Below are positions 9,011-31,958 of a stretch of 64,000 nucleotides of DNA, in pieces. The notes under the pieces were generated by a model that saw only the letters and a program-made list of their open reading frames with translations, was not told where the DNA came from and searched no databases. Origin of the DNA: Acidobacteriota bacterium (lineage in GTDB: Bacteria; Acidobacteriota; Thermoanaerobaculia; Multivoradales; J023); the NCBI GenBank assembly GCA_029263395.1, contig JAJCXO010000187.1, positions 62,001-126,000 on the forward strand, in the 5' to 3' direction. Each line of letters opens with the position of its first letter. Position 1 is the first letter of the stretch. The position numbers and the translations under genes are program-made.

Positions 9011-11272
9011 CTAGTCTAGGAGCACAACCTGAGTTGTTTTCTGAAACGTGCCATGCTCATTGGTGACGGTCAGCGTGACGTCGAATAGTCCGCGGGCACC
9101 GCGTATTGCACCTCCCCATGCCGACATATCTCCAGACTCGAAACCATCCAGGAAGATTACGCTCGGATCGGGATCGATACCCGCGGTATCCCAGCTGAGT
9201 CCGGTTTCCCCACACACCAGGCCGGTGCCGGCACCGGTTGCGGTACAGGTCAGCGGTGGGTCATCCCCATCAACCTGAACAACGGTCCACTCGAACGATG
9301 TGGCCGGTTTGCCACCGATGCCTGGCGAGCCGTTGTTGACAGCCTGAAGATTCAGGTCTTGCCCAACCTCGTAGACCGGCGGCGGTCCTTCTTCTCGAGG
9401 ATTCTCGAGGATGTCGAAGGCTTCGAAGAAGGGGCGAGGGTCTTCAACTATCAGCGAAAGCTGATTGGTCGATGTGGCCAAGCCACCGCAATCGACCGAG
9501 GCGGACACTTGGATCGTCCGCATCGGACAAGTTGATGTCGGGTAGGTGTCAGCGCCGCACAGGTCAGCCCGGATTCTGGCCTGGTCACCGGCCAACGGTT
9601 CGATGATCGGCTGCGGGTCGTCCGCTGCCGTGCCGGCAGCGTTGGCGGCCATCCATTGCCAATTGGAGGCGACCGCTGAGTCGCAAGAGCCAGTGAGGGA
9701 GATCCATTCCGGTACATCCGGTGAGGCGCTGCTGAGCCAACGATCATCAGAACTGGTCTCGATCTGCGCTGAAGGATCGATCCAGCGGTGGATGTCGAAC
9801 ATGGTCTGGGCACCGCGATAGAAGTAATCGCCGTAGAATCTCCCGCTATGCGCTGCGAAGAAACTAAAGCCACCGGTCGATCGATCGGAATAGCTGGACC
9901 AATAGTCGATTCGACGCTGAGGGCCGGAATGATTCGGATCCAGGTACTGCTCGCCACGGATATCGACCACCGGTCCGCCAGTGGCCAAACCACTGAGCTC
10001 TAGCAGAATCTCCTGGTTCGGCTCCGCGGTCGAGGAAGGCCCTGAACACAGGCTGTGGTAGCTCTTGTAGAGAAAGGGCCGCCCGTTGCTCTCGGAGAAC
10101 TGCACAAATGAGCTGTGCGGCAAGGTCGAAGCGGTCGGTAGATCGAAACGCGGATTGTTCAGCGTGCAACCGGGCGAGCCGGTGACGCAGTTTGTCACGT
10201 CGTGGATCTCGAGATCCTTTTCGTTGATGGCCGCGAGGTAATAGCGTGATGCGATCTCGAAAAGATCGACGCCGAAGGAAATCGAGCTCAACCCTTCGAC
10301 ACGCGCAACACTGGTCGGAGGCAAGCTGGTGATGTCGGTGATCTCGCGGAGCTCGACGCCCAGAGGGCTGGCTGGGGTACCGTCACTCGCGGCGATGATG
10401 AACCGGGGTTGGCCAGAGACGTCAGCCTCCAACAGGTCGACATATCTTGCGCGACCCCAAGGCCAGGGCCCGATTCGGCCTCGCCACACAGGATTGGTGG
10501 CTCCACCGCAGAGGCTCGTCGCGGTGCTAGTGTTTTCGAAACAGGGTCCAACCTCCCGTGCTCGCGTCATATCGTAAACGTGGACCCCGTTGTTGACAGC
10601 GTAGAGCGCATAGGTGCGACTACCTATGTTGGCAGTGACCACCTGTACTCCCACCTTACCGGTATCCTGATAGAGCTGGAAGGGGCTGCTCTTGTTGCTG
10701 GCATCCCAGATCGTCGGCCCAACTTCGCCGTCACCGCTGACGGCAACCAAGGTATCGCCAGGAGCACCTACCGGATCAATCGCGTCGATATCCCAGATTG
10801 GAAGATAGTACTCGGTCGGTGGATCCGGGAAGACATGGAAACCATTGAACCAGCCATTGCGCGTTGATCGCAGGACTGGATCAGTGGCATTGTTGCCGGT
10901 GATATCCCAGATCTGGAAGCCGGAGTTGAATGCCATGTAGAGATACACAGAGCTTCCATCGGGCTCGATGTCGAGGCCATAGAAGAGCTCCAACCCCCCT
11001 GCACCTGGCAACTGATCGTCGTCACTGCTGTACTCCGTACTGTCCCGGTTGGCGGGCAACGGCTGCCCCAACGGATCGGCCGGCTCTAGGTTGGGAGACC
11101 ACATCTCGAACGTGCCTTGGCCTGCCACCGTACGGAATCTGTCGAGTGGCATCGCTGGGCTGCCTGTTTGGCAGTTGATGGTGTTGTTCTCGGCCAATGC
11201 TGAAACAGACGCCAAGACACCGACGGCCAGACAGCAAGCCATTCTGAAGCTGGAGTTTCTCTTGTGTTGCAC
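9011..11272 (-). CDS. Secreted propeller/PKD protein, paralogue 1 of 3
   Basis: Starts with a signal peptide (basic stretch, then a hydrophobic core ending near S-A-L-A-E). The mature part opens with a G-Q-G-T-F-E-M-W-S-P-N block and runs through repeated segments such as F-Q-I-W-D-I, T-I-W-D-A and V-H-V-Y-D-M-T-R-A-R-E, which look like blades of a LVIVD-type beta-propeller. Two Ig/PKD-like domains follow, the last split by a V-I-F-L-D-G-F-E-S-G-D-M-S-A-W tract before its T-V-T-N-E-H-G strand. The same architecture recurs at 16804-19722 and 30250-31851. The GTG at 11272 has a GAGGTGATC ribosome site; a GTG at 11281 is also possible. Function unknown; likely extracellular binding or surface-associated. 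Confidence 0.7.
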   Translation of the reverse strand: MQHKRNSSFRMACCLAVGVLASVSALAENNTINCQTGSPAMPLDRFRTVAGQGTFEMWSPNLEPADPLGQPLPANRDSTEYSSDDDQLPGAGGLELFYGLDIEPDGSSVYLYMAFNSGFQIWDITGNNATDPVLRSTRNGWFNGFHVFPDPPTEYYLPIWDIDAIDPVGAPGDTLVAVSGDGEVGPTIWDASNKSSPFQLYQDTGKVGVQVVTANIGSRTYALYAVNNGVHVYDMTRAREVGPCFENTSTATSLCGGATNPVWRGRIGPWPWGRARYVDLLEADVSGQPRFIIAASDGTPASPLGVELREITDITSLPPTSVARVEGLSSISFGVDLFEIASRYYLAAINEKDLEIHDVTNCVTGSPGCTLNNPRFDLPTASTLPHSSFVQFSESNGRPFLYKSYHSLCSGPSSTAEPNQEILLELSGLATGGPVVDIRGEQYLDPNHSGPQRRIDYWSSYSDRSTGGFSFFAAHSGRFYGDYFYRGAQTMFDIHRWIDPSAQIETSSDDRWLSSASPDVPEWISLTGSCDSAVASNWQWMAANAAGTAADDPQPIIEPLAGDQARIRADLCGADTYPTSTCPMRTIQVSASVDCGGLATSTNQLSLIVEDPRPFFEAFDILENPREEGPPPVYEVGQDLNLQAVNNGSPGIGGKPATSFEWTVVQVDGDDPPLTCTATGAGTGLVCGETGLSWDTAGIDPDPSVIFLDGFESGDMSAWGGAIRGARGLFDVTLTVTNEHGTFQKTTQVVLLD

Positions 11273-11326
11273 GTGGATCACCTCAGTGAGCTGAAGGCAA
11301 ATGTTCGAAATGGACAGACTGAAAAT

Positions 11327-11356
11327 GTTATAACAGCGATTATATCATGCTGTCAA
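11327..11356 (-). promoter_or_regulatory. Sigma70-like promoter for the secreted protein gene
   Basis: On the minus strand a perfect -35 TTGACA (11356-11351) is followed after 18 bp by TATAAC (11332-11327), one base off the -10 consensus. The predicted transcript start would lie near 11320, giving a leader of about 48 bases before the GTG at 11272. The surrounding AT-rich patch stands out from the GC-rich background. Confidence 0.55.
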
Positions 11357-16803: not shown

Positions 16804-19722
16804 CTATTTGATGATGAGCGGTATGGGCATGGTGGGCGAGATGTTGGTCAGATTGTCCTGGGTATCGCAGAGCGCTCCCAGACACGCGGTGGCAGACAGG
16901 TTGTAGGTCCCTGCGCTGCTGTAGGTGCGACTGTAGGTCGGCGCATCGCACGCCAAGCCACCAGTGGACCCGTTGCCCCAGTTGAACGACAGATCATCAC
17001 ACTCGCCAGTGACATCTACCGTAAACGTCACCGGTCCCGCCGGACAGGCACACTGTCCACCGAAACACGAGCAATCCGTGCCCACAGTCACAACTCGAAA
17101 GTTGGTGATCTCCGGTGCCTCGAGGCCGACAACCGTGACATTTTCGACCGTACGGCTGGTCGAAATCGGCGCAACGGCGGAATCACAATTACTGATCTCG
17201 AGCCAAACCTCGTAGTCGTCACCATCGACGTTACCGTTGGGCCAATCGTATTGGACGTTCGGCGAAGTGGTTGTACGGATCTCACAAGGCGTGACCAACC
17301 GGCATCCAACATCGCCGGCTTGTGACGGGTCCTGCTCGAACTCCCAGCGGTACAGCGTTGCGCTTTCGGCAGTCGCGGTGAAGGAGTAGATGCCATCGCT
17401 GGGCGGCGTTGACGGGATCGTGAAGCCATCACCATTGAAGGCCAAGGCAGCCAGCGGCGTCAGGGTCAACTGGGTCGTCTGTTGGATCGAACCATGCTCA
17501 TTGGTTGCAGTCAGCATGATATCGAACGTCGATCCGATCACCCCTCTCCTCGCTCTCTCGGTCTCCCAGGCTGACGTATCGCCCGACTCGAAGCCGTCCG
17601 CGAATATCGATGTCGGATCTCCGACCTCGACATCTTCGGTGTTCCAGGTCAACTGGCTCTGCGTGCAAGTCAAGCCGGTGCCAGCACCGGTAGCATCACA
17701 GGCGAGTGGCGTGCCGCCAGTGGTCTGCACGATCTCCCAAGAGAACGAGGTCAGCGATTTACCACCAATTCCACTGAGACCACCGTTGAGTGGCCGCAGG
17801 TTGAGGGTAGAACAAACTGGGTATTGCGGTGGCGGCCCCGGGTCTTCTGGGCTCTCTAGGATGCTGAGGCTAGTGAAAAAAGGTCGCGGATCCGTCAGGG
17901 TCATAGACAGCTGATTGGAGGTCACATTGGTACTGTCACACACCACGTCAGCCTCTACCTGTATCGTTCTGTCCTGACATACATTGGCAGGGTAGGGATC
18001 GGTTCCGCATAGATCACCGCGTACTTGCGCTAGGCTGCCAGCAAGCTCCTGGACCACTGGATCCGGGTCGGTCGCCGACGTGCCGAGTTCGTTGTCTGCA
18101 CTCCAAGACCAACCACTACCAGCGCCTACGCTGCACGTACCGTTGAGGCCAACCCACTCGAGTTCCCCAGGGCTGCTCAGCCAACGATCGGTCGTCGTCG
18201 TTTCGATCGCGACGCTAGCTGGCACGTCCCCTACCCACTTGTGGATATCGAACATAGTCTGCGCACCACGGTAGAAATAATCGCCGTGAAAACGGCCACT
18301 ATGCGGCGAGAAGGTGCTGTAACCATTGTTGGCTTGGTCGTAGTATGAGGACCAGTAGTCGATTTTCTGGGTTGAAACTTGGCCCTGCTCCACATACTGC
18401 TCTCCACGCACTTCAACGGCCTGCCCGCTTGCGATCTCGCGCAGATCGAGCAGGTACTCGGGATTGCCTTGGGTGGTCGTGGGCGGTGAGCTGCAGAGCG
18501 TATGAAACCCTTTGTGGAGGAACGGTATACCGTTGCTCTCGGAGTACGAAACAAAGGCGAGGTCATGCCCGACGGTGGGGAATTGGGCCTTGCGATTGCT
18601 GAGACTACAACCCGGACTGCCACTCAGGCAGGGTGTGACGTCGTAGACCTCGAAATTATCGCGATCCGTAGTGCCCAGGTAATAGCGACTCTCATACTCG
18701 AAGAGAGCAACACCGTAAGAGGTCGTGCTGAGACCCTCGATGATGGCCGTGCTGCTAGGCGGTAGGCTGGTAGCACTGGTGATTTCGCGCAGTTCGACGC
18801 CGAGGCTGTTGCTGAAGAAGGCATCAGTTGTGGCAAGGAACGTCTTGGACTGGCCACCGATCGAGGTCGTCAAGACGTCGACATAACGCGCTCGGCCCCA
18901 CGGCCACGGCTCAATCCGCCCACGATAGACCGGGTTGGAATTACCCCCGCACAAACTTGTTGCGGTCGATGTGGTCTCAAAACATGCGCCAATTTCGCGC
19001 GCACGGGTCATGTCATAGAGATGCACACCATTCGTCGCCGCGACGAAGGCGTACGTTCTGCCACCAATGTTGGTCGCGGTGACTTGATTACCTGTCTTGG
19101 ACGTATCCCCGTAGAGCTGCGTTGGATTCGTACGGCTAGCCGCGTTCCAGATCGTAAAGCCGGTCAACGCCGAGTCGGAGGCGATGGCCACCAGCGTCTG
19201 GTTGCTAGATGGCGGATTGATCGCGTCGATGTCCCAGAGCGGGAAATAGAACTCCGTGACGTTCGGGCCCCAACTATTGAACGCACCGTCCCAGCCGTCT
19301 TTCTGACTCAAAAGAACAGGATTGGCAGCACGGGGGCCACGAATATCCCAGATTTGGAAACCCGAGTTATAGACGATGTACAAGCTGGTGCTGGATGAAT
19401 CTTCGACGATGTCGAGTTGGTAGAAAAACTCCAACCCACCAGCGCGGCCAGGGCGCTGGAAACCGTTATAGGAAGTACTGTCCCTAGCGCTCGGCAAGGT
19501 CTGACCCACAGGATCCGCAGGCTCGAGGTTAGGAGGCCACATCTCGAACGTTCCTTGGCCGCCAATGGTGCGGAACTGCTCTACCGGCCTTGCCGGATCA
19601 CCATCTTGGCAGAGCGTCGTTCCCGCTCCACCTGCAAACGCGGCGGCAGGCACCAAGCCAAGACCGAACAGAACCGCAACTGTCGCGAGGATGCGACTCT
19701 TTTTCCAGACTTCGAGCTTCAT
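16804..19722 (-). CDS. Secreted propeller/PKD protein, paralogue 2 of 3 (longest)
   Basis: A 972-residue secreted protein with a clear signal peptide ending near A-A-F-A-G. It shares the G-Q-G-T-F-E-M-W-P-P-N opening, the F-Q-I-W-D-I and V-H-L-Y-D-M-T-R-A-R-E blades and the P-W-P-W-G-R-A-R-Y-V-D block with the genes at 9011 and 30250. It carries an I-F-A-D-G-F-E-S-G-D-T-S-A-W tract inside a PKD-like domain and continues with two more PKD/Ig-like domains, a cysteine cluster (C-S-C-F-G-G-Q-C-A-C) and a T-Y-S-R-T-Y-S-S-A-G-T-Y-N-L strand. AAGGAG precedes the ATG by 8 bases. It starts 350 bp downstream of the 496-aa secreted protein gene. Function unknown; extracellular. Confidence 0.72.
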   Translation of the reverse strand: MKLEVWKKSRILATVAVLFGLGLVPAAAFAGGAGTTLCQDGDPARPVEQFRTIGGQGTFEMWPPNLEPADPVGQTLPSARDSTSYNGFQRPGRAGGLEFFYQLDIVEDSSSTSLYIVYNSGFQIWDIRGPRAANPVLLSQKDGWDGAFNSWGPNVTEFYFPLWDIDAINPPSSNQTLVAIASDSALTGFTIWNAASRTNPTQLYGDTSKTGNQVTATNIGGRTYAFVAATNGVHLYDMTRAREIGACFETTSTATSLCGGNSNPVYRGRIEPWPWGRARYVDVLTTSIGGQSKTFLATTDAFFSNSLGVELREITSATSLPPSSTAIIEGLSTTSYGVALFEYESRYYLGTTDRDNFEVYDVTPCLSGSPGCSLSNRKAQFPTVGHDLAFVSYSESNGIPFLHKGFHTLCSSPPTTTQGNPEYLLDLREIASGQAVEVRGEQYVEQGQVSTQKIDYWSSYYDQANNGYSTFSPHSGRFHGDYFYRGAQTMFDIHKWVGDVPASVAIETTTTDRWLSSPGELEWVGLNGTCSVGAGSGWSWSADNELGTSATDPDPVVQELAGSLAQVRGDLCGTDPYPANVCQDRTIQVEADVVCDSTNVTSNQLSMTLTDPRPFFTSLSILESPEDPGPPPQYPVCSTLNLRPLNGGLSGIGGKSLTSFSWEIVQTTGGTPLACDATGAGTGLTCTQSQLTWNTEDVEVGDPTSIFADGFESGDTSAWETERARRGVIGSTFDIMLTATNEHGSIQQTTQLTLTPLAALAFNGDGFTIPSTPPSDGIYSFTATAESATLYRWEFEQDPSQAGDVGCRLVTPCEIRTTTSPNVQYDWPNGNVDGDDYEVWLEISNCDSAVAPISTSRTVENVTVVGLEAPEITNFRVVTVGTDCSCFGGQCACPAGPVTFTVDVTGECDDLSFNWGNGSTGGLACDAPTYSRTYSSAGTYNLSATACLGALCDTQDNLTNISPTMPIPLIIK

Positions 19723-27666: not shown

Positions 27667-29922
27667 CTACGGAACCGTCGTTGACCAGGCAGACGTATCG
27701 CCGGATTCAAAGCCATTGCTGAATAGCTCAGAGCCTCGGTCGCCATTGACCACCAGGGCAAACACTGCATCGAGCGCGGCGGTGTCGGGATGGGCATCTT
27801 GCACGATCTCGTCGCCGACCACCTCAATTGTCCAGATCCCGGCTTCCGGATTGGCGATGAAAACATTCTCCACGGTATCGATGGTGTTGGAGCTACCACC
27901 AGGAGTTGAAGTGTTGCCGGCCGCAAGACCATTGTTTCCCCAATAGACCACTGCCGATGGCGACGTGACACGTAACGACAAATCGTTGATACGAGCCTGG
28001 GCGGCGCCCGGGGTACCCATGGGATCAACGTAGACCAACGTCACCGCAAGCTCGGTCTCGCCATCTACCACATCGGCGCTGTAGGACTTGGTTTCCAATG
28101 GGACGATGATCTCGGTCTCATCGATAACAAAAGTCTTCGCTGCACGATCATAGAGTCGCCGGACATCGGCGGTGCCCCAACCCTGCTTGTTCCGGTCCAT
28201 GTCGCCAAAGGCGCAGGCCCCTGGATTGGCCCAGTCGTAGCGGTGGGCTGCGTTGATCATCAGAGCTTTGGCGGTGGCCATGTTCGGCCGGCTATCGAAG
28301 ACGTCACTGCCACCGCCGTGGCCGGCCCAGATGCCCTCGTGCCACATCTGGAACAGGAGACCGAAGTAGCCCGAGGTCTGCGGTGTCGCCGAACTCGTGC
28401 CACCGAACTGCGTATAGTTTGTATCGCCGCTGCCGGAAGCTGAGAAGATCGAATCGTAGAAGAAGGCCAAGTCCGGCTTGATCCGACCATCAGCGGCCGG
28501 ACCGATGCTGGCAGTAAAACTCCAGTTGTCGTCACACCGGTCGGCAGTGCTTTCGTGATTGAAGCCCCCGACGGAAACAATGTTCTTGGCCCATGCTTGC
28601 GGCCGCGACTGTTGGTTGCCAGAGTTGCTCTGACTCTGCGTCGACAGAATCTGATGCAAGAACAAGTAGTCATCAACCTCGGCGGAGATCGTCGAGTACG
28701 TGGTGTTACGAGTGGACCCGACACTCGACGTTTGGTAAACCGCACGATAGACCCCGCCAGGATCGATCAGCTCGGCATTGGCGTCGTAACGTGATGTCCC
28801 GCCGCCAAACTGCGTCGATTCGGACAGGCAAAAGAAGATACCTTGGGCATCCGGCACCACACCCCGGGCCGGCGCGCTGGTGCCTCCAGCAAAGTTGTTG
28901 CTGTAGGAGCTGGTACCGTGGAGCACGCTGCAGGAAGAGGCGACGCTATGTAGGATCGGTGCTGTTGGCCATTCCTGGTGCGTCGTCAGTAGCTCGCTGT
29001 CGAACACTTCGCCACGGACCCCTTGACCGGTGAAACCCTCGATGCCCTCCAGATAGTCGCCGCCACCAACCTCGCGCACGATATCCATATCAACTTCGCC
29101 CGGCCCTCCCCAACGGTCGACGAAGAGCACCCGATGATCGTGCGCCACCTCGACCAGCTGTTCTTGCGTCAACGTCGCTTCGACCCGAACACCCCCGCCT
29201 TCGATCAACTCCATCAACCCTCCCAAGCTCTGGATCCGAGCGGCCAATCCAGCCTGTTTTTCAGCGCTCCGCTGACCTAGCATGATGGAGTAACGCTGAC
29301 GCTCGAGCCGGGCTGCGTGCCCTTCGATCGCATCCCGTAGCGGCGCTTCCAATCGAAACGCAGGGTGATAGGGCCCGATCCAACGGACGTAGGGTAGGAA
29401 GCTGAGCTCGTTCAACACATCCGGTTCGGCATCGACCACAAAGGTGTGGTTGGTCAGGAACCGTAAAACCGTACCTCCCAATGTATCGATAGCGGCCCGG
29501 AACTCCGGTAGCGGAGCGCTGTGGAACTGGACCAGATGCAGTCGGTTGCTGGCACGCGCCGCGAGATCCAGACTGACGACGGGAGGTTCCACTGCCAGCG
29601 GATCGAACCGGTGATCGCGCAGTCGTACGACATAGTCGGTGGCGCGCACCCTACCTCGTAGAACACCGCCATCACTGACCGCGTAGAACGCTTGTGATTC
29701 GCCGGAAGCCTGCATTTCTCGCCATAAGTGGAGTTTGACCTCGCTGCTGGGCAACGCGATCGAACGGTGATCTTGCACCTCAGAATCGGTTTTGTGAAAC
29801 CGCTCCCCTGACGAGAGCACAAACGGCTCGTCGGAGGGGCTCTGGGCTCCCAGCGCAGACAGAGGCATCAAGGCTGCCACCGAAAGAACACAGACCAAAC
29901 CAGCGCGTCGGAGAGAAAACAT
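27667..29922 (-). CDS. Secreted subtilisin-like (S8) serine protease with C-terminal FESGDTSAW tract
   Basis: The start at 29922 gives a clean signal peptide (M-F-S-L-R-R-A-G-L-V-C-V-L-S). A long pro-region follows, then the S8 catalytic domain: Asp in G-E-V-F-D-S-E, His in L-H-G-T-S-S-Y-S, and Ser in G-T-S-S-A-T-P-Q. A P-domain-like beta region (T-L-V-Y-V-D-P, then I-W-T-I-E-V-V-G-D) precedes the last residues F-S-N-G-F-E-S-G-D-T-S-A-W. The tract is at the very C-terminus here, whereas two other proteins in this window carry it internally. Likely an extracellular protease. It converges on the HAD gene with a 24-bp gap. Confidence 0.87.
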   Translation of the reverse strand: MFSLRRAGLVCVLSVAALMPLSALGAQSPSDEPFVLSSGERFHKTDSEVQDHRSIALPSSEVKLHLWREMQASGESQAFYAVSDGGVLRGRVRATDYVVRLRDHRFDPLAVEPPVVSLDLAARASNRLHLVQFHSAPLPEFRAAIDTLGGTVLRFLTNHTFVVDAEPDVLNELSFLPYVRWIGPYHPAFRLEAPLRDAIEGHAARLERQRYSIMLGQRSAEKQAGLAARIQSLGGLMELIEGGGVRVEATLTQEQLVEVAHDHRVLFVDRWGGPGEVDMDIVREVGGGDYLEGIEGFTGQGVRGEVFDSELLTTHQEWPTAPILHSVASSCSVLHGTSSYSNNFAGGTSAPARGVVPDAQGIFFCLSESTQFGGGTSRYDANAELIDPGGVYRAVYQTSSVGSTRNTTYSTISAEVDDYLFLHQILSTQSQSNSGNQQSRPQAWAKNIVSVGGFNHESTADRCDDNWSFTASIGPAADGRIKPDLAFFYDSIFSASGSGDTNYTQFGGTSSATPQTSGYFGLLFQMWHEGIWAGHGGGSDVFDSRPNMATAKALMINAAHRYDWANPGACAFGDMDRNKQGWGTADVRRLYDRAAKTFVIDETEIIVPLETKSYSADVVDGETELAVTLVYVDPMGTPGAAQARINDLSLRVTSPSAVVYWGNNGLAAGNTSTPGGSSNTIDTVENVFIANPEAGIWTIEVVGDEIVQDAHPDTAALDAVFALVVNGDRGSELFSNGFESGDTSAWSTTVP

Positions 29923-30249
29923 CGTGTAGGTTCCCTTTGGGTCGGACGTAGATCGAGCCTCGCGGAGGCCTGCCGCGAAACAACTTGCTTGCCTGATCTC
30001 TGAAACGGGACAAATCCGCCGTATCCTGTTAGGGCACGTGCACACCCTGACCTTGCTCTCGAGTACGGACTCCAGGAGACGGATTTTGGTGGGCTGATCA
30101 TAACCCCCTGCCGACCTTTGCCGAAACTCTGCCTTGGTTCCGAAGCCACCTATCCGGGACGGAGCCAGTCCAGAAAATGCAGCGGTCGTCTTCCGATGTC
30201 GCCAGCGACCCGCGCTGCTATCTCATAGCATCAAGCGGCCAGTCCCCGC

Positions 30250-31851
30250 TCAGCGGGTGGGTGATGGAAACGTCTCATCCCAAGCCGAGGTGCCGCCAGA
30301 CTCGAAACCGTCAGCAAAAACGTCGTCGGACGGAGGCGGCGGACCGGTCCAACGATGGATGTCGAAAACGGTTTGAGCGCTGCGATAGAAGAAGCGACCA
30401 TGGAATTGCCCGCCATGGGGGGCGAACGCGCTCAGGCCATCCGTCGACTGATCGTAGTAGCTCGACCAATAGTCGATCCGGCGTTGTGGACCCGCATGGT
30501 TGGGATCGTTGTAAGTCTCACCACGGATGTCGACGATCGGCCCGCCGCTGGCGAGCCCCTCGAGATCGAGCAAATGCTCGATATTGTTCTCTCCGGTTGT
30601 CGGCGGGGCGCTACACAACGAATGAAAGCCCTGGTAGAGGAACGGTCTGCCTATGCTGGTGGAAAACTGCAGATACGCGAACGAAGGCAGATTACCAAGA
30701 GGCTGACGATAACGGCGGTTGCCAGCACTGAAAGCACAAGCCTGCCCTGGCACCGAAGCCGGGGCAAGGCAGGCGGTGAGGTCGTAGATCACCAAAGACC
30801 CGGCGTCGATCGCACCGAGGTAATAACGGTCGCGATGATAAGCCCGTTCGGGGATGGTGAAAAGATCAAGCCCTGCGTTGAGGGTGTTCAAACCTTCAAC
30901 AACCGAGACACTGGCAGGCGGCAACTGTGTGACGTCGAGGATCTCGCGAATCTCCGCTCCTAAGTCCTCGAATAAGAACTCGTCACTGACCGCCACGAAA
31001 TGCCGCATCTCCCCATCGATCTCCGCCGACATCACATCTAGATAAGCGGCGCGCCCCCATGGCCAAGGCTCCAGCCGCCCTCGCCACACTGGATCGGCAT
31101 CACCACCACACAGACTTCCGGCGGAAGACGTGCTCTCGAAACAGGGGCCAACTTCACGCGCTCGGCTCATATCGTAAACATCAACGCCTCTATTGCTCGC
31201 GTAGAAAGCGTAACTCCGGCCACCGATGTTGGTTACCGATACCTGGACGCCGACTTTCCCAGTATCCTGATAAAGCTGTATCGGGTTCGACTTATTGGTT
31301 GCGTCCCAAACTGTAAGACCGACTGCAGTTTCGCCAGGTAACACAACGAAGGTCGCTCCGGGCTCGTCGGGCGGGTCGATGGCCGCGATATCCCAGATCT
31401 TGAAGTATTGATGTGCGGGGATATCGAACTCGTGGAAATCACCAAGCCAGCCATCCCGCTGGGAGAGACGCACCGGAGTTCTGGCCAACGCGCCCTGGAT
31501 GTCCCAGATCTGGAAGCCAGCGTTGTAGGACAAGAAGAGATGTGCGCTGCTGTCGGTGGCGACGATGTCCAGATCGTTGAAAAACTCCAAGCCATTCGCT
31601 TCCCCAGGCGGCACCTCGAATCCGGTGTAGGCAGTGCTATCCCGGGTTGCCGGCAGCGGCTGACCGATCGACTCGGCGGGCTGAAAGTTCGTCGGCCACA
31701 TGGCAAACGTTCCCTGGCCATCAATGGATCGCGAGGGCTCGATCGGTAATGCCGGGGTGCCATCAAAACACGCCGTCGTGCCGGGCTCGCCAGCCGACAC
31801 GACCGGCGCGAACACGGATGTCGCGAGCAAGGCCAGAAGCCAGGTCTTCAT
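30250..31851 (-). CDS. Secreted propeller protein, paralogue 3 of 3 (short form)
   Basis: The start at 31851 gives a signal peptide (M-K-T-W-L-L-A-L-L-A-T then V-V-S-A). The body matches the other two paralogues blade for blade (G-Q-G-T-F-A-M-W-P, F-Q-I-W-D-I, V-D-V-Y-D-M-S-R-A-R-E, R-R-I-D-Y-W-S-S-Y). It stops straight after V-F-A-D-G-F-E-S-G-G-T-S-A-W, without the PKD domains present in the two longer copies. It therefore shows the tract as a C-terminal element on the same backbone. Function unknown, extracellular. Confidence 0.72.
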   Translation of the reverse strand: MKTWLLALLATSVFAPVVSAGEPGTTACFDGTPALPIEPSRSIDGQGTFAMWPTNFQPAESIGQPLPATRDSTAYTGFEVPPGEANGLEFFNDLDIVATDSSAHLFLSYNAGFQIWDIQGALARTPVRLSQRDGWLGDFHEFDIPAHQYFKIWDIAAIDPPDEPGATFVVLPGETAVGLTVWDATNKSNPIQLYQDTGKVGVQVSVTNIGGRSYAFYASNRGVDVYDMSRAREVGPCFESTSSAGSLCGGDADPVWRGRLEPWPWGRAAYLDVMSAEIDGEMRHFVAVSDEFLFEDLGAEIREILDVTQLPPASVSVVEGLNTLNAGLDLFTIPERAYHRDRYYLGAIDAGSLVIYDLTACLAPASVPGQACAFSAGNRRYRQPLGNLPSFAYLQFSTSIGRPFLYQGFHSLCSAPPTTGENNIEHLLDLEGLASGGPIVDIRGETYNDPNHAGPQRRIDYWSSYYDQSTDGLSAFAPHGGQFHGRFFYRSAQTVFDIHRWTGPPPPSDDVFADGFESGGTSAWDETFPSPTR

Positions 31852-31958
31852 ATGGATGGAACGCACTAAGGATCCCCAACTGTCTTCCCAGTAGTCCATG
31901 TTACCACAGCATCAAGCGCCTCGAATACCTCCTTCTTTGCCTCATCCTTATCCGCGTC

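Follow-up and report, generated by a model that had tools for sequence, protein, structure and literature searches.

What is a short tract that recurs in four secreted proteins of one locus, at the end of some and inside others? The window, i.e. the whole 64,000-nucleotide stretch of DNA that was analysed, encodes all four proteins on the minus strand, and the tract is located in each as described in the initial annotation, twice at the C-terminus and twice internally. The S8 subtilase (27667..30045, minus strand; Pfam PF00082, 4.4e-07) starts with a signal-peptide-like N-terminus and ends with LFSNGFESGDTSAWSTTVP followed by the stop codon (27667..27726). The short protein at 30250..31899 (minus strand), labelled propeller-type in the initial annotation and without a Pfam match, ends with VFADGFESGGTSAWDETFPSPTR and stop (30250..30321). 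In the 972-residue long propeller-PKD protein (16804..19722, minus strand), which has no C-terminal tag and whose last domain is matched by Pfam PKD (2.4e-06), the internal tag IFADGFESGDTSAW (17566..17607) is located in the loop of a PKD-like domain. The equivalent loop of a second, shorter propeller-PKD protein (9011..11272, minus strand, start codon uncertain; stop-to-stop frame 9011-11344) carries IFLDGFESGDMSAW (9116..9157), with the stop 34 residues downstream. This protein, L204, shares 56% identity with residues 12-501 of the short propeller protein. The interval 27667-31851, for which the tract was first noted, contains both C-terminal copies only, and the internal ones lie outside of it.

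The internal copies had been read as interruptions of an existing domain. The homologue L203 from a genome of the same genus bears this out, as its PKD-like domain has no insert and the tract is found at its own C-terminus. A PKD fragment of the window that includes the internal tag was modelled with a mean pLDDT of 49.6, and this structure was not used as evidence. In 10 other genomes with tags, the subtilase homologue also has the tag or a close variant at its end, and the homologue in G091 has a C-terminus without it. The Cys-rich tail of this G091 protein was considered as a substitute tag and rejected, as the 28 genomes searched have between 0 and 5 matches each and G091 itself has one.

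Over all 291 contigs of the genome (10.68 Mb), the pattern [DN]GFExG has 109 matches compared to 5 for the reversed pattern, and the tract is therefore not a product of chance. Class-wide, Fx[DN]GFE[ST]G is found at up to 140 places per genome, with the reversed pattern at 0 or 1 per strand. High copy numbers are restricted to this class among the samples of the phylum, and the named relatives are metagenome-assembled genomes of Thermoanaerobaculia/Acidobacteriota. All 76 tags read in context differ as DNA, use both serine codon families and vary at synonymous sites, so that it is the peptide that is conserved and not a recent DNA repeat. The residues [DN], G, F, E and G are invariant by design, as they are fixed in the search pattern; Trp, which is not fixed by it, is kept in 69 of 70 tags. 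The exact tract strings are absent from the 5.39 million open papers searched, and the matches listed for Thermoanaerobaculia combined with sorting or surface topics include no relevant work.

As the initial annotation had supposed, the tract is portable. The 76 tags are found in unrelated kinds of proteins, mostly secreted, and besides the C-terminus they occupy mature N-termini and loops of PKD and RHS domains. A stop codon follows within 25 residues in 70/76 tags, and in 62 of these 70 the tail after the Trp position comprises 0-6 residues. Each of 189/189 tagged frames examined contains exactly one tag. The strict signal-peptide test is passed by 50/108 tagged frames compared to 35/302 untagged ones; by a crude test, export is mostly of Sec type, with at least one Tat-like case.

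A single copy at the C-terminus is what would be expected for a processing signal recognised by a peptidase of the sortase, exosortase or rhomboid type, and such a signal had been among the functions first proposed. The shape of the tails argues against it. No hydrophobic helix or basic tail follows the motif in the C-terminal tags read in context, most tags end almost directly after Trp, there are N-terminal as well as internal copies, and cleavage at the latter would break the PKD-like domains. The anticipated co-occurrence with a sortase-like gene did not emerge either. Sortase PF04203 is matched in 5/15 tag-rich and 6/13 tag-poor genomes, with no match in G058 (completeness 100). Exosortase PF09721 is matched in 14/15 tag-rich and 10/13 tag-poor genomes, overall in 24/28 irrespective of tags, and has no match in the tag-rich genome G041. 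We regard a processing signal as very improbable. The tag resembles PEP-CTERM, GlyGly-CTERM and MYXO-CTERM in that, within each genome, short and similar C-terminal tails are found on dozens of exported proteins of unrelated kinds. It differs from them by the missing transmembrane helix and basic tail, by its additional locations inside domains and at N-termini, and by the lack of a linked peptidase among sortase PF04203 and exosortase PF09721.

The tag could alternatively be a sorting signal for a secretion or anchoring machine, such as the receptor of type II secretion or an outer-membrane factor yet to be described. The similarity to a jelly-roll domain discussed below would then be history only, and the tagless jelly-roll proteins would be otherwise employed. 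The strong C-terminal bias (70/76 and 41/42) and the higher frequency of signal peptides among tagged frames are in line with this reading. So are the secretin matches in 55/55 genomes tested, among which the five genomes of the tagless genus g23 have none but the weaker matches. However, secretin matches are equally present in every tag-poor genome tested, and the tag is not confined to C-termini but occurs at mature N-termini and within loops of PKD and RHS domains as well. Nor does this reading account for the coincidence that the clients have gained exactly the segment that the acceptor lacks. We consider it rather unlikely. Type II secretin, exosortase and sortase were rejected as the tag-linked machine, as their presence fails to discriminate tag-rich from tag-poor genomes. 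For SprA of the T9SS, 0/19 genomes were matched, and no control genome gave a match either.

The origin of the tract points in another direction. Judged from sequence, the tract corresponds to the beginning of a Cip1/PL20-like beta-jelly-roll, namely strand 1, the N-terminal calcium loop and the first part of strand 2. A profile of domains carrying the segment in cis (A5), in which the tract letters were pre-set by the search pattern and the remaining letters were not, finds Cip1 in the PDB (3zyp, 1.2e-12) with an alignment starting SDDFESGwDQTKW, and also 8q28 (2.5e-07). Profile A4, built from stand-alone bodies only, finds nothing in the PDB at E <0.4, and a single-sequence phmmer search with L367, assessed for the in-cis form of the domain, finds no relative there. 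The predicted structure of L367 (pLDDT 76.9, pTM 0.79) is a jelly-roll fold, matched best by PL20 2zzj (Z 16.8, rmsd 3.0, 201 aligned) and Cip1 3zyp (Z 16.2, rmsd 2.9, 185 aligned). Neither the tag nor the acceptor was assigned to a family when the four window proteins and several acceptors were scanned with Pfam and NCBIfam. The start of the MAM domain was rejected as origin of the tag: it shows resemblance only, and the spacing differs.

In Cip1, three elements surround the Ca2+: the N-terminal loop Phe6-Trp15, the bent-fingers loop and, in the last strand, Asp206. The Glu7 side chain and the Asp5 main chain are among the ligands (PMC3764139). The in-cis bodies align with Cip1 in the Glu7/Asp5 region, which makes this a predicted metal site by sequence. 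Could the tag alone then be a minimal peptide that binds glycan or metal? This would fit its descent from a Ca2+ site and from a fold that is common among proteins active on carbohydrates, but only part of the Ca2+ site is in the tag, and the ligand face proposed for the fold is located in the body (PMC10916295). We consider such a minimal peptide improbable.

Cip1, PL20 glucuronan lyase and X122 (3zyp, 2zzj, 8q28) share the fold and, as calcium ligand, the Asp of the last strand, and Cip1 and X122A have an N-terminal DxFES-type segment as in the tag. In these structures, segment and body are one chain, whereas here the segment mostly occurs alone and the body also occurs without it. The initial annotation had reasoned that its portable signal would fail if the tract were a normal conserved strand of one domain family found in unrelated phyla without position bias. 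The first half of this holds, since the tract is one of the conserved stretches of a domain family that has further members on IMG/VR contigs and in fungi (Cip1). The second does not: in this class, the tract is mostly found without the jelly-roll domain and its C-terminal bias is strong. A tag with the stop directly after Trp has 0 matches in viral_contigs. Because the tag loci of this genome contain no jelly-roll body match, the tails are not frameshifted jelly-roll domains. That the segment is the beginning of such a domain would also suit functionless tails decaying from a formerly complete one. We find this scarcely credible, given that no two of the 76 copies have the same DNA and synonymous sites vary while the peptide is kept, and that the tag persists in the subtilase homologues of ten genomes from several families.

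The jelly-roll bodies fall into two groups according to their position in the protein. A tag-like segment is present in cis in 36/42 bodies that do not directly follow a signal peptide (32 by a permissive regular expression and 4 by eye); one of the remaining six, L348, ends at a contig edge. The segment is missing in 30/32 bodies directly following a signal peptide, as judged by eye, with L347 and L357 as exceptions. The Asp206 equivalent is D in 30/30 stand-alone and 20/20 in-cis bodies aligned, and the bent-fingers glycine is found in 28/30 stand-alone bodies and only 14/20 in-cis ones. The tagless acceptor may fold without the segment, which would speak against docking. In four acceptors, SLH anchors follow the jelly-roll, and L336 bears a dockerin.

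With modest confidence, we therefore regard the tract as the N-terminal segment of the jelly-roll, detached from its body and used as a portable docking tag, which would bind the secreted, tagless acceptor in trans. The exported clients have a single copy of the segment, as a rule at the C-terminus, and genomes of the same class encode small secreted jelly-roll acceptors without it. The acceptor retains its own half of the predicted calcium site, i.e. the Asp206 equivalent and mostly also the bent-fingers glycine. In the proposed mechanism, the tag would occupy the groove left empty at the N-terminus of the acceptor, and the Ca2+ site would be completed by the Glu of FESG and the main chain of the residue that precedes F. 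The client would thereby be held non-covalently and calcium-dependently at the location of the acceptor, which may be surface glycan or an S-layer-like layer. The anchoring role first suggested is thus plausible on indirect grounds: the tagless acceptor, the four SLH-fused acceptors and the sulfatase-type neighbourhoods.

The two partners largely co-occur, in line with docking, although there are misses that speak against it. Body matches are found in 44/64 genomes with tag compared to 2/84 without, and in 23/25 genera with at least five tags in a genome compared to 6/44, counts that are corrected for relatedness at the genus level and partly include in-cis domains whose segment can match the tag pattern. 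With the five-sequence body profile, which is weak and for which at most 23 candidates were scored per genome, 20/64 tag-bearing genomes give no body match, among them the tag-rich genomes G058 (88 tags), G084, G100, G102 and G103. The stand-alone protein of G041 scores 35.2 bits with this profile and 160.6 with a later one. In G021, G090 and G105, an acceptor is present together with one tag match each. Sulfatase-family homologues are found at 12/20 acceptor loci compared to 4/60 and 5/71 tag loci. A partner gene adjoining the tags was also sought, and recurrent untagged neighbour clusters did not point to one.

Cohesin-dockerin pairs likewise employ a portable docking module on many secreted enzymes and a separate receptor module, with calcium involved. 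The dockerin is a complete folded domain, in contrast to the proposed tag, a fragment that would itself complete the receptor fold. Pfam finds no dockerin in the four window proteins; for 72 tagged proteins, the Pfam families considered are the best 25 of 84. In donor-strand complementation in pili and in SpyTag/SpyCatcher, a peptide completes a beta-sandwich that is without that strand. The proposed pair differs from these by its fold, its calcium site and one acceptor for many clients, and no covalent bond is suggested.

A natural split-domain display, in which up to about a hundred exported tagged proteins per genome complete in trans one or two secreted tagless jelly-rolls, some of them S-layer-anchored, appears to us to have a little less than an even chance of being correct. 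Engineered pairs of peptide tag and catcher would then have a natural equivalent, gated by calcium and used by an entire exoproteome. If docking is true, it would provide a new genetically encoded, calcium-switchable tag-acceptor pair, many unexplained tails would gain meaning, and it would explain how a large set of exoenzymes stays together.

All four tracts lie where the initial annotation placed them, on the minus strand: at the C-terminus of the subtilase and the short propeller protein, and internally in the two propeller-PKD proteins. Across the source genome (10.68 Mb, 291 contigs), [DN]GFExG gives 109 matches vs 5 for the reversed pattern. We read 99 of these 109 places in sequence, including the four in the window, and 76 of the 99 distinct motif-bearing frames contain the fuller form [IVLMF]Fx[DN]GFExG. 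The C-terminal placement holds genome-wide, with a stop at most 25 residues from the tag in 70 of the 76 frames; in three further genomes the stop follows within 12 residues in 41 of 42. Invariance of [DN], G, F, E and G is set by the search pattern and is no evidence. A Trp that the pattern does not set stands at constant distance in 69 of the 70 C-terminal tags. From this position, 0–6 residues remain to the C-terminus in 62 of the 70, most commonly five after Trp (15 tags), and 9 end exactly at Trp. The six remaining frames comprise both PKD proteins of the window, two RHS-like proteins, one with the tag right after the signal peptide and one with it 35 residues before the stop. Each of 189 distinct closed tagged frames carries exactly one tag. 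Among loci read later, tandem jelly-roll proteins have one segment for each body, and L231 combines a DDFESG domain start with a C-terminal tag. In the RHS-like L072 and L087 (about 1600 residues), a single tag lies between YD-type repeats with cysteines nearby.

The 72 aligned tagged proteins of the source genome match 84 Pfam families; the 25 families listed include S8, M12B, M28, M36 and C25 peptidases, GH85, FG-GAP, BNR, beta-helix and RHS. A crude signal-peptide test is passed at the called start by 50 of 108 complete tagged frames vs 35 of 302 untagged ones, and at the loosest start by 72 vs 81. The tagged L006 appears to be a Tat substrate by its twin-arginine-like signal (STRRGFITG), and the tag is therefore probably not confined to Sec-exported proteins. 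Ten subtilase homologues outside the source genome, all from tag-bearing genomes, have the tag or a variant close to it as their C-terminus, and the homologue of the tagless G091 (L218, G091:C190) has no C-terminal tag; this comparison leaves out the G105 homologue and the source-genome paralogue L186, whose ends are unreadable. L218 has a Cys-rich tail, CCSNSCKGRNGAKTCR, at the place of the tag. In the propeller family, eight proteins carry the segment in the PKD-like loop (degenerate in L189) and none of these has a C-terminal tag; L203 lacks the loop insert and carries the tag C-terminally.

Behind some of the DDFE matches stands a domain of roughly 190 residues; the members scanned match no Pfam or NCBIfam family. 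A profile of 16 in-cis domains, drawn from 22 IMG/VR domains after removal of four doubtful and two near-duplicate rows, matches Cip1 (3zyp) at 1.2e-12, aligned from Cip1 residue 3, SDDFESG. The predicted model of L367, one of these domains, is a jelly-roll (pLDDT 76.9, pTM 0.79), closest to the PL20 lyase 2zzj and Cip1. Many further jelly-roll proteins, such as toxin-binding domains, also match, and the common fold alone shows no function. The Cip1 report (PMC3764139) places a structural calcium between the N-terminal loop Phe6–Trp15, another loop and the final strand, bound by the side chains of Glu7, Ser37 and Asp206 and the main chains of Asp5, Ser37 and Asn40. From the alignment and this layout, the tag corresponds to strand 1, the N-terminal calcium loop and the beginning of strand 2. 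The Asp206 equivalent is present in 30/30 stand-alone and 20/20 in-cis bodies, the loop glycine in 28/30 and 14/20. We identify the tag as a segment that became detached from a jelly-roll domain.

A first profile, built from five bodies without the tract, matched 46 of 148 genomes of the class: 44 of 64 tag-bearing vs 2 of 84 tagless genomes (G046 and G117, both with the in-cis form). By genus, matches occur in 23 of 25 with at least five tags in a genome vs 6 of 44 others. Twenty tag-bearing genomes gave no match, including G058 (completeness 100). This profile is weak: a G041 protein scored 35.2 bits with it vs 160.6 with a second profile. The latter, from 21 stand-alone bodies plus L305, was run on the collected loci and yielded 74 bodies. 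Of these, 42 are not placed immediately behind a signal peptide, and a tag-like segment precedes 36 of them (32 matched by a permissive regular expression, 4 judged by eye); of the 32 placed immediately behind one, 30 lack the segment. Segment-free stand-alone bodies were read in 28 genomes, each with at least one tag match, and with only one in G021, G090 and G105. Five long proteins (L310, L313, L316, L323, L324; open frames of about 1300–2400 residues) contain tandem whole-domain copies, each with its own N-terminal segment in the parts read, one degenerate. Seven others (L075, L113, L228, L248, L250, L253, L290) have the tag or DDFE variant soon after the signal peptide, followed by GH114, beta-helix, Ig-like or other domains.

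Downstream of the body, four putative acceptors (secreted bodies without the segment) carry SLH anchors (L317, L354, L358, L359) and one a dockerin (L336). Sulfatase-family homologues occur at 12 of 20 acceptor loci vs 4 of 60 and 5 of 71 tag loci; in length, the acceptor loci mostly resemble the 71-locus set. The 12 loci (among L327–L346) come from families f1, f2, f3, f6, f7 and f13. Glycosyltransferases lie near two acceptors among the loci examined.

The tag pattern occurs in 64 of 148 genomes of the class, with up to 140 places per genome. The phylum sample comprised 247 genomes, of which 22 matched, class members and non-members counted together; beyond the class, we observe at most two places per genome. 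A tag with a stop directly after Trp was found in 71 stretches of a GTDB-based collection (84,980 species genomes), titled as Acidobacteriota lineages, mostly Thermoanaerobaculia, with one exception, 'uncultured bacterium'. The DDFE variant is present in 51 of 148 class genomes, 47 of them also tag-bearing, and lies at most 17 residues from the end in 17 of 30 loci read. On IMG/VR contigs, at least 58 residues follow the tract in 26 of 32 cases, it is C-terminal in five, and one frame leaves the contig end. The downstream parts are mostly jelly-roll-like by eye, and three match the body profile. By eye, L378 looks related to the window's propeller protein, so the five contigs with C-terminal tags (L375, L377, L378, L382, L385) could represent proviruses or host sequence wrongly assigned to viruses.

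The initial annotation proposed a portable processing, sorting or anchoring signal. Sortase is found in 5 of 15 tag-rich and 11 of 28 genomes overall and exosortase in 24 of 28, and neither tracks the tag. The exosortase-family protein (L225, L226), mostly small, is present irrespective of the tag. Secretin matches occur in 55/55 genomes without tracking the tag, and SprA in 0/19, by a search without a working control. None of the tested machines tracks the tag, and a processing signal is unlikely. Clients carry a segment that the acceptors lack, and the two are adjacent when in one chain, as would be expected of fusions between parts that interact. The tag is likely a portable docking or anchoring tag, through which clients would dock on a surface-held acceptor in a calcium-dependent manner.
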